Shown piece by piece: positions 45,515 to 48,207 of a stretch of 64,000 nt of DNA. Within the stretch, counting starts at the first letter, position 1. Every line of letters begins with the position of its first letter. The DNA is from Kiloniella majae (GTDB lineage: Bacteria > Pseudomonadota > Alphaproteobacteria > Kiloniellales > Kiloniellaceae): NCBI RefSeq assembly GCF_002118315.1, contig NZ_MTSZ01000003.1:372001-436000 (forward strand), written 5' to 3'. The position numbers and the translations under genes were made by a program. A model generated the notes under the pieces. It did not search any database. It saw nothing but the letters and a program-made list of their open reading frames with translations, and was not told the origin of the DNA.

Positions 45515-46474
45515 ATGCGTACAGGCATTGCTGTTTCTTTATTAATGCACATGGCGTTGTTGGCGTTTGTAATTTTTGGATTACCACGCTTTAACAAGCC
45601 TTTTCTTGCTGAGCAGGTTGTCCCTGTTGAGTTTGTGGTACTTGCGGAGCTTGATTTAGAAAAGCCACCAGCACCAGAACAGGATATTCCTGAACCCGAG
45701 CCAGAAGAGCTTCCTGAGCCAGAACCCAAACCGGAACCAGAACCTCAGCCAAAACCAACACCAGAGCCTCAACCAGAACCCGAACCAGAGCCACAGCCAG
45801 AACCTGCTCCAGAACCTGAACCAACTCCGGAACCAATCCCAGATCCTATTCCTGAGCCTGAGCCCGCTCCAGAACCGGAACCTTTGAAAGTTGAAGCGCC
45901 AGAGCCGGAGCTTATTGAAAATATTGAACCAGAGCCTGAAGAAGTGAAGAAGGCTTTGCCGCCAAAACCAAAGGCGCGTCCGAAGCCACCTAAACGCCCA
46001 GAACCTAAACCGGAAGTCGTGAAGAAAGAGGAAGAGCCTAAGCCGAAAGTCGATGCACTAACTTCTATCTTGAAAAATGTGGATAAGCTGAAATCTGCAC
46101 CAAAGAAAACCACGACTAAAGGTAAGGCACCAACTACGCCGACACGACAACGTGCTTCCGCTGCACAGATCAATGATATTCAACGATCACTTCAACAACA
46201 GATGAAACGTTGCTGGCGGGTAGATGCTGGTGCATTACAAGCTGATGAAATGATCGTAGAGATCTCTATGCAAATGCGCCAGGACGGCAGTATTAATAGT
46301 GTAAAGATTGTTGATCAAAATAGGTTTAATAAAGATGCTTATTTCAGGACTGCGGCTGAAAATGCTCGGCGTGCTGTGATTAGCTGTGCACCTTATAAAC
46401 TTCCAACTGACCTATATAGTGATTGGCAAACAGTAAACTTGAAATTTGATCCGTCTAAGATGTTTGGGCAATGA
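45515..46474 (+). CDS. tolA: Tol-Pal system protein TolA
   Basis: The 319-residue protein has an N-terminal helix with the SLLMH motif (SxxxH, contacts TolQR), a rod of Pro-Glu/Pro-Gln/Pro-Lys repeats (about residues 48-185) in place of the Ala/Lys helical rod of enterobacteria, and the C-terminal TolA domain (about 220-319) with [23 protein letters not shown] and [11 protein letters not shown]...FDPSKMFGQ. It links TolQR to Pal and TolB. The stop overlaps the ATG of the following degenerate gene. Confidence 0.93.
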
Positions 46475-46870
46475 TTTCAAAGCTTCATTGTAAGCTTACT
46501 TTGGTGTGGTTGTTTTGCGGGTTTTGTTTGTGTTCGTAAAGTTTTTCGATTGCCGAGCCGATTACGCCTTTGGAAATAATTGGCGAATGCTGGAAAACAA
46601 ATTTTAGCCCCAATTCTTCGTTAGATACTATTGTTGAGTTATCAATGAAGTTGTCTCTTGATGGTAATGTTGAAGAGGTTATCGTTGTTGATCGTGAGAG
46701 ATTCGATCATGATGATGTCTTTAACCTAGCGTCTAGTGAACTTAGTAAAGCACTCGTGGAGTGCGGACCTTAATAAATTACCAGCCGATCTGTATGACGG
46801 TTGGAAAGTGATTAATATTCGATTTGATCCGTCAAAAATGTTCGGGCAAAGAACGGGAGAAGAACAGTGA
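46471..46870 (+). pseudogene. Degenerate gene for a secreted second TolA C-terminal domain
   Basis: An ATG overlaps the tolA stop and opens [20 protein letters not shown], which looks like a signal peptide. A TAA at 46537-46539 then interrupts the frame. After the stop the same frame continues with PLEIIGECWKTN, VELSMKLSLDGNVEEV and VVDRERF, matching the TolA C-terminal domain next door, up to CGP at 46770. There one extra A in TTAATAAA causes a frameshift, after which another frame reads NKLPADLYDGW and FDPSKMFGQ, the same ending as TolA. The frame closes at 46870, overlapping the tolB ATG. It was therefore a complete small gene in the operon, now broken twice. Confidence 0.85.
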
Positions 46871-48207
46871 TGTTAATAAAGGCAACGCGCGGGTTGCTGA
46901 TTGCCGCGGTCAGTGTGTTGGGAATGGCGATAGGTAGTTTTTCTGCCCAAGCTGAAATCAATGTAAATATTACTGAAGGTTTTGTTGAGCCTCTACCCGT
47001 TGCTGTTGCGGATTTTAACGGCGGACAGCCGGAAGAACAGCTAATCGGGCGCGATATTGCCGAGGTGATTTCTGCTAATCTTGAGCGTACAGGACTGTTT
47101 AAGCCAATTGATGACAAAGCGTTTATTCAGGATCAGAACTCTCTTCAGGTCGGCGTTCGTTTTGGGGATTGGCGCTTAATTAATGCGCAGGCATTGGTGA
47201 CAGGATCTGCACGGGTTCAAGGCGATGGTAAAGTCCGTGTCGAATTCCGTTTATGGGATGTTTATGCGGAAAACATGATGACCGGTTTTTCCTATACATC
47301 AACCAGAACCAACTGGAGACGTATTGCTCATCGTATTTCTGATGCGATCTACAAGCGTCTGACCGGGGAACAAGGATATTTTGATACCCGGGTTGTGTAT
47401 GTATCCGAAACGGGACCTCAGAATCGACGCCAAAGACGTTTGGCCATTATGGATCAGGATGGATTCAATCATAAATTCCTGACGAATGGCAGGTTTGATG
47501 TCTTTACTCCGCGTTTTTCACCAACGTCACAAGAGATCACATATTTGTCATTCGAGGGGAATGTTCCAAAGGTAAAGCTTCTTGATCTGCAAACTGGTCG
47601 CGAAGAAACTCTAGGGAACTTCAAGGGAATGAGCTTTGCGCCACGATTCTCACCCGATGGAAACTCTGTTGTGATGAGTTTGGCGGACCGCGGAAATACT
47701 GAAATTTATACTATGGATCTTCGGACCAGAAAGTTTTCCCGTCTGACAAATCACCCGGCTATTGATACGTCACCGTCCTATTCTCCTGATGGATCTAAGG
47801 TTGTATTCAACTCTGACCGAGGTGGTAGCCAGCAGCTTTATGTGATGGATGTTAACGGTGGCAACGTGAAAAGAATCTCTTTTAATAAAGGGCGTTACGC
47901 GACACCTGTGTGGTCTCCTCGTGGTGATTTGATCGCTTTCACACGTCTTTCCGGTAGAAAGTTCTATATCGGTGTGATGAAGCCGGATGGATCAGGTGAA
48001 CGCATGCTGGCCGAAGGCTATCATGCTGAAGGTCCAACCTGGTCTCCGAATGGTCGTGTCCTGTCCTATTACAAACAGGGCAAGTCCGATAGTCGTGGTA
48101 AGGTGAAAAGCAAAGTTTATACGGTTGATCTGTCAGGATATAACGAAAGAGAGGTGGTTACGCCTCTTGATGGAGTTGATCCGGCTTGGTCTCCACTATT
48201 GCAATAA
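46870..48207 (+). CDS. tolB: Tol-Pal system periplasmic protein TolB
   Basis: The 445-residue protein has a signal peptide ([20 protein letters not shown]), an N-terminal domain with [11 protein letters not shown] and a six-bladed WD40-like propeller with repeats such as [35 protein letters not shown] and [12 protein letters not shown]. It contacts Pal and TolA. The ATG at 46870 overlaps the TGA that ends the degenerate gene; a GTG one codon earlier is possible. Confidence 0.96.

Follow-up and report, generated by a model that had tools for sequence, protein, structure and literature searches.

What occupies the gap between tolA and tolB in Kiloniella majae, and what did the gene that once stood there do? 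We analysed a window of 64,000 nucleotides from this genome (G000), a 4.38-Mb draft in 56 contigs. From knowledge of their families we take the genes on either side to be ruvC, ruvA, ruvB, ybgC, tolQ, tolR, tolA, tolB, pal and cpoB, and their relatives are arranged in this same succession in each of the nine genomes of Kiloniella species. The parent gene, tolA (45515-46474, plus strand, 319 aa), is assigned from its ORF and its position in the operon; its domain III (TolA-III; 46157-46471, 105 aa) served for the comparisons, and tolB, assigned from its ORF, follows at 46867-48207 on the same strand. The gap between the two holds a broken gene made of a signal peptide and a copy of TolA-III, the remnant of which spans 46471-46870 on the plus strand and carries three lesions. 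Its frame starts at ATG 46471, in an ATGA overlap with the tolA stop codon, and includes the residues ECWKTNF and, immediately ahead of a stop, ALVECGP. The former signal peptide (46471-46554, from translations) ends at an AXA-like cleavage point before Glu that was judged by eye (SIA↓EP, with AVA↓EP in the relatives G007 and G003). Within it, at codon 23, lies the first lesion, an in-frame TAA (46537-46539) in a TTCGTAA string that occupies the same alignment columns in G005. The second is a one-base frame change within TTAATAAA (46770-46777), at which the opening frame ends (TAA 46771-46773) and after which the TolA-like ending FDPSKMFGQ continues in the next frame. The third is the loss of the original stop codon (46850-46852), which extends the frame to TGA 46868-46870. 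Both conserved cysteines are still present in the former TolA-III-like domain (46585-46849). An initial annotation of this DNA had counted two lesions, and was right about the TAA and the frame change but incomplete, as the stop loss had escaped it.

When the window's own TolA is used as a tblastn query, the remnant is matched in two frames (31% identity over 64 residues and 68% over 25, E = 5e-18), and residues 1-102 are 81% identical to the intact copy of the nearest relative (E = 7.8e-53), a resemblance to TolA-III that, at the level of sequence, is far above chance. The disrupted frame, and the intact orthologues that relatives have in this position, identify 46471-46870 as a pseudogene; frame, tblastn and relatives agree with the earlier view that the tol operon once included a gene for a secreted TolA-III, now broken. 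Overlaps with the neighbours at both ends had further been taken to mean that it was translated as part of the operon. The 5' overlap with tolA is common to relatives, being ATGA in four of the six ORF-bearing species (the window counted) and GTGA in G007, with none in G006. At the 3' end, all five ORF-bearing relatives, intact or broken, have a TGA after the final GQ and then 14 nt to the tolB start, and because the third lesion removed the original stop codon, the TGATG shared with tolB arose through decay, was no part of the ancestral arrangement, and lends no support to operon translation.

Among the nine Kiloniella species genomes, the window's included, the ORF between tolA and tolB is intact in three, broken in three and absent from three, so that the intact gene which the initial annotation proposed to look for in related genomes does exist. 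The intact copies encode 126 residues in G007 (a Kiloniella MAG), 126 in G003 (K. litopenaei P1-1) and 131, counted from a chosen ATG, in G006. In the copy of K. spongiae (G008) one base is missing from the signal region and a stop removes the last ten residues; since only these ten are missing, a truncated exported domain might still be made, and we note a TTG in the continuing frame after the signal-region shift (L005, minus strand). The G005 copy has several stops and deletions. Two lesions are common to pairs of genomes, namely TTCGTAA in the window and G005, and a one-base gap column in G008 and G005; those of the window and K. spongiae have no overlap, and hence the gene has decayed separately at least twice. 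In the ORF-less G004, G001 and G002 the distance from the last tolA codon to the tolB start is 17-18 nt, stop included, the G002 gap having been taken directly from sequence. Beyond the genus, searches that could miss strongly diverged copies or copies at contig ends found a match to the G006 protein in 56 of 61 genomes of the order, with a second match directly behind tolA only in the six ORF-bearing Kiloniella and no TolA-III copy beside tolA in the 52 other genomes of the order. A sample of the class gave any match in 122 of 144 genomes and a second copy beside tolA only in the window's genome, the 143 others having none. Within the genomes examined, the putatively secreted TolA-III gene is found only in Kiloniella, and in the literature searched, which covered few subscription papers, no title refers to a gene for a secreted TolA-III in this position between tolA and tolB.

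Short stand-alone proteins resembling TolA-III are encoded away from tolA in the order, at four loci (L054, L055, L057 and L061). Three of these frames (L054:989-1432, L055:804-1280 and L057:1-648) come from family f2 of the order; of these, the L054 and L055 proteins have a putative lipobox, their export signals having been judged by eye, and lie next to a gene that we presume to encode phosphoglycerate kinase, and the L057 frame, cut at the contig start, holds two TolA-III-like domains. The fourth (L061:971-1411, minus strand; match E 0.009) is a protein of 146 aa whose start resembles a signal peptide and whose end, LPAEKYEIWKQITLKFD, resembles TolA-III; it belongs to G002, a Kiloniella without the tolA-tolB ORF. 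All four resemble the product of the ORF in having one TolA-III-like domain (two in L057) and putative export, but differ in not standing at tolA-tolB and in being more distant in sequence.

How closely does the product of the intact ORF follow TolA-III? It consists of a signal-peptide-like start and one domain (126-131 aa in all), without the membrane anchor of TolA and without its long domain II. The window's TolA retrieves the intact copies at E 9.7e-27 (G007) and 1.7e-24 (G003), and in the three species where it is intact the ORF is 39-42% identical to the TolA-III of its own genome, in line with the earlier judgement that the duplication is old. Alignment with TolA domain III, which had also been suggested, brings the two cysteines and the FDP..MFGQ end into register, and across the six sequences of our alignment A1 residues C40, C98, D110-W111, F118-D119-P120 and M123-Q126 are invariant. 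Conservation is uneven, with 18/27, 18/27 and 19/27 of the last 27 residues identical between ORF and own TolA vs 19/65, 18/65 and 21/68 of the remainder. The ORF stays below the cut-off of every curated Pfam and NCBIfam model, and no TolA model matches it at E <= 0.1; the window's true TolA is likewise unmatched in Pfam, and NCBIfam TIGR02794 (tolA_full) covers its residues 209-313 at 36.8 bits, below the cut-off of 59.45. A PDB sequence search with A1 gave chance-level matches only (best E 0.3, the fourth being a TonB). The structural model of the mature G007 protein, built from three sequences, is weak (pLDDT 62.5, pTM 0.54). The helix, strand, strand, helices, strand and helix that it predicts would be in the order of TolA-III, which accounts for eight of the nine top rows when this weak model is compared by VIA-align with 266 chains pre-selected by Foldseek (Z 6.1-7.8, all below 8); in Foldseek itself the first two matches are FusB, a TonB homologue, with TolA-III third and none at E <= 0.001.

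With MFGQ, TGA and AC-GGGAGAAGAA (or a close variant), the ORF's 3' end and the leader that follows match the tolA-tolB junction of the ORF-less species, and for that reason the simplest origin is that the 3' part of tolA was duplicated. For the signal peptide, comparison of the ORF with the N-termini of TolB, TolA, Pal and CpoB against shuffles revealed nothing convincing in 24 comparisons (p 0.046-0.97), the lowest values being alike for G006 with TolB (0.052) and for G006 with the control CpoB (0.046). The three intact ORFs are joined in the best tree at a support of only 52/53, in a part where long branches meet, and the G006 copy could be an independent duplication. We also observe that the G006 ORF has CAPYNLPI in common with its own TolA.

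The intact copies of G007 and G003 differ by 22 synonymous and 30 nonsynonymous changes (dS 0.35, dN 0.11, dN/dS 0.31; 0.24 for the domain alone), a departure from neutrality with a Fisher p of 0.0002 when site numbers are back-calculated. The same pair of genomes gives dN/dS of 0.09 for TolA-III and 0.025 for TolB, and these substitution patterns show the two intact copies to be under purifying selection that is weaker than on TolA-III. Comparison with the distant G006 copy, at high dS, yields ratios of 0.46 for G007 and 0.29 for G003. The window's broken copy still gives 0.29 against G007, which implies either that decay is recent relative to divergence or that the copy was recently exchanged.

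What would such a protein do? With its domain alone behind a signal peptide, lacking anchor and domain II, it differs from TolA in that TolQR could not drive it, and its mature form would be a soluble periplasmic TolA-III. It would retain the TolA-like C-terminal stretch formed by strand beta-3 and the tail FDPSKMFGQ, an edge expected to be the docking place on TolA for the N-terminus of TolB, for phage g3p and for colicin N. TolB and g3p are described as binding TolA-III through strand augmentation (PMC7391070), and the TolB site, which colicin N also uses, as including residues D418 and K420 in E. coli TolA (PMC4339652). The far better conservation of the C-terminal 27 residues, taken with these reports, leads us to infer that a soluble protein competed, or served as a decoy, at the docking edge: uncoupled from the TolQR motor, the ORF product would occupy these ligands and act as a brake on, or a decoy for, Tol-Pal and its parasites. 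Competition for Pal or TolB had been envisaged in the initial annotation; the Pal idea finds no support here, and TolB would be the likelier target. We further propose that a soluble TolA-III would be costly when unneeded, and that this cost would account for both the fast evolution of the gene and its loss by decay. An artificial precedent exists in E. coli, where a signal-sequence-TolAIII fusion serves to release periplasmic protein (PMC6195910); under weak induction release occurs only with the TolAIII fusion, under strong induction leakage also occurs without TolAIII, and the construct, which joins the signal sequence of ribose-binding protein to TolAIII, is credited to Wan and Baneyx (PMC6195910). 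As far as it is described there, that protein has the same architecture as the ORF product, a signal peptide followed by free TolA-III, but is expressed from a plasmid, whereas the Kiloniella ORF is natural and sits in the tol operon; unlike the artificial TolAIII, it has diverged from its parent and is broken in half of its carriers. On this comparison, the ORF presents a known domain in a new natural form. That it encodes a soluble periplasmic TolA-III which would hold the ligands of TolA without transmitting force, and which has been lost by decay at least twice, is a reading we consider evenly poised between right and wrong.

Several other explanations bear on the same observations. An error of sequencing or assembly in a gene that is really intact might be suspected in a draft of 56 contigs, and is scarcely credible where three lesions fall in a single gene while the surrounding operon genes are open, where one of them (TTCGTAA) is apparently common to G005, and where the copy of K. 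spongiae is broken by others. Recoding, by which read-through of the stop and a programmed frame change would give the full secreted protein and which the initial annotation had raised, could draw on a frame that is open between the lesions and a domain that is well kept; we regard it as highly improbable, and effectively set aside, given that the frames of G007, G003 and G006 are unbroken with no recoding site conserved, that the lesions of the other broken species partly differ, and that the original stop was lost too. More weight, though still on the unlikely side, goes to a by-product of duplication in which the 3' end of tolA, joined to a signal peptide, had little or no function, was tolerated at first and is now disappearing. 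It would fit a gene that is broken in three of six carrier species with at least two lesions each, missing from three more, and evolving at a dN/dS several times that of TolA-III, but it sits less well with the survival of intact copies in three species, the divergent G006 among them, with a dN/dS below 1 between intact copies, and with the retention of both cysteines, the export signal and the C-terminus.

It may also be the DNA that matters here and not the protein, with the 3' part of the remnant (and perhaps codons 39-76) either kept for a role in cis in the expression of tolB or made uniform by interspecies recombination. The case for this arises from a stretch before tolB (46801-46866) whose DNA is nearly constant in both the intact and the broken copies of the window's clade: across the window, G007, G003 and G008, none of the 11 informative codons among the last 16 of the ORF varies synonymously, and only 2 of 18 do so in codons 39-58, vs 225/409 in tolB, 158/275 in tolA and 38/162 in pal. 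On the remnant, blocks of low synonymous variation lie at 46585-46700 and 46801-46866, in intact and broken clade copies alike. Exchange tracts do exist at this locus, as window and G007 are 97-99% identical in TolA-III DNA (46151-46450), vs 83-88% for G008 to both, and their synonymous divergence is 0.08 in TolA-III vs 0.25-1.2 in the other genes compared, a pattern that marks the TolA-III of this pair as a recent exchange tract between species. Equally quiet 16-codon windows occur, however, in pal and tolR (18 of 2255), the conserved stretch has no Rfam match at E <= 1, no promoter-like site was found in 46300-46950, and the ORF-less species manage with their 17-18 nt; a search of the 64 kb for tRNAs was likewise negative. 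We therefore rate this explanation as distinctly unlikely overall, while allowing that the quiet stretch may reflect an influence in cis on tolB or past exchange, and that the conserved C-terminus of the ORF may come from DNA-level constraint before tolB or from gene conversion rather than from protein function.

Recombination around the remnant may extend to G005. Its TolA-III and a piece of its tolB stand out sharply as divergent (68-70% and 53-63% DNA identity with the window), with tolQ, tolR and pal normal. In a protein tree of RuvC, RuvA, RuvB, TolQ, TolR and Pal, the genomes G000, G007, G003, G008 and G005 form a clade with 100/100 support, and a grouping of G004 with G005 is rejected (p 6e-38). 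Trees of TolB residues 86-180 (47122-47406 of the window, plus strand) combined with TolA-III (46157-46471) instead place G005 with G004 (100/99) and reject G005 within its own clade (AU p 0.0007), the corresponding loci being L006 and L049 in G005 and L008 and L051 in G004. The TolB segment alone also rejects the own clade (p 0.002), and TolA-III alone does not (p 0.10). For the remainder of TolB the own clade stands (p 0.13), and it is the pairing of G004 with G005 that is rejected (p 0.019). All these p values are too favourable, as the segment was picked after its divergence had been seen. The pattern resembles a joint exchange, on either side of the remnant in G005, of two matched segments that interact, and this genome, with its seemingly swapped TolA-III/TolB pair, has the most decayed copy of the ORF. 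One could then imagine that TolA-III, secreted TolA-III and the N-terminal domain of TolB make up a matched recognition module in an arms race against bacteriocins or filamentous phages, in which TolA-III and TolB 86-180 would be exchanged together (in G005, with a G004-like lineage), the secreted domain would serve as a periplasmic decoy, and the latter would decay once the module is replaced; we offer this wider scheme as a long shot.

The shared grouping of TolA-III with the adjoining part of TolB points to selection on the docking site used by phages and bacteriocins, and may outweigh the pseudogene itself in worth. As for the soluble competitor or decoy, free periplasmic TolA-III is already used in the laboratory to disturb the outer membrane, and a natural exported TolA-III inside the tol operon would be the machine's built-in competitor or decoy, for which decay in sister species of Kiloniella offers ready comparison pairs.
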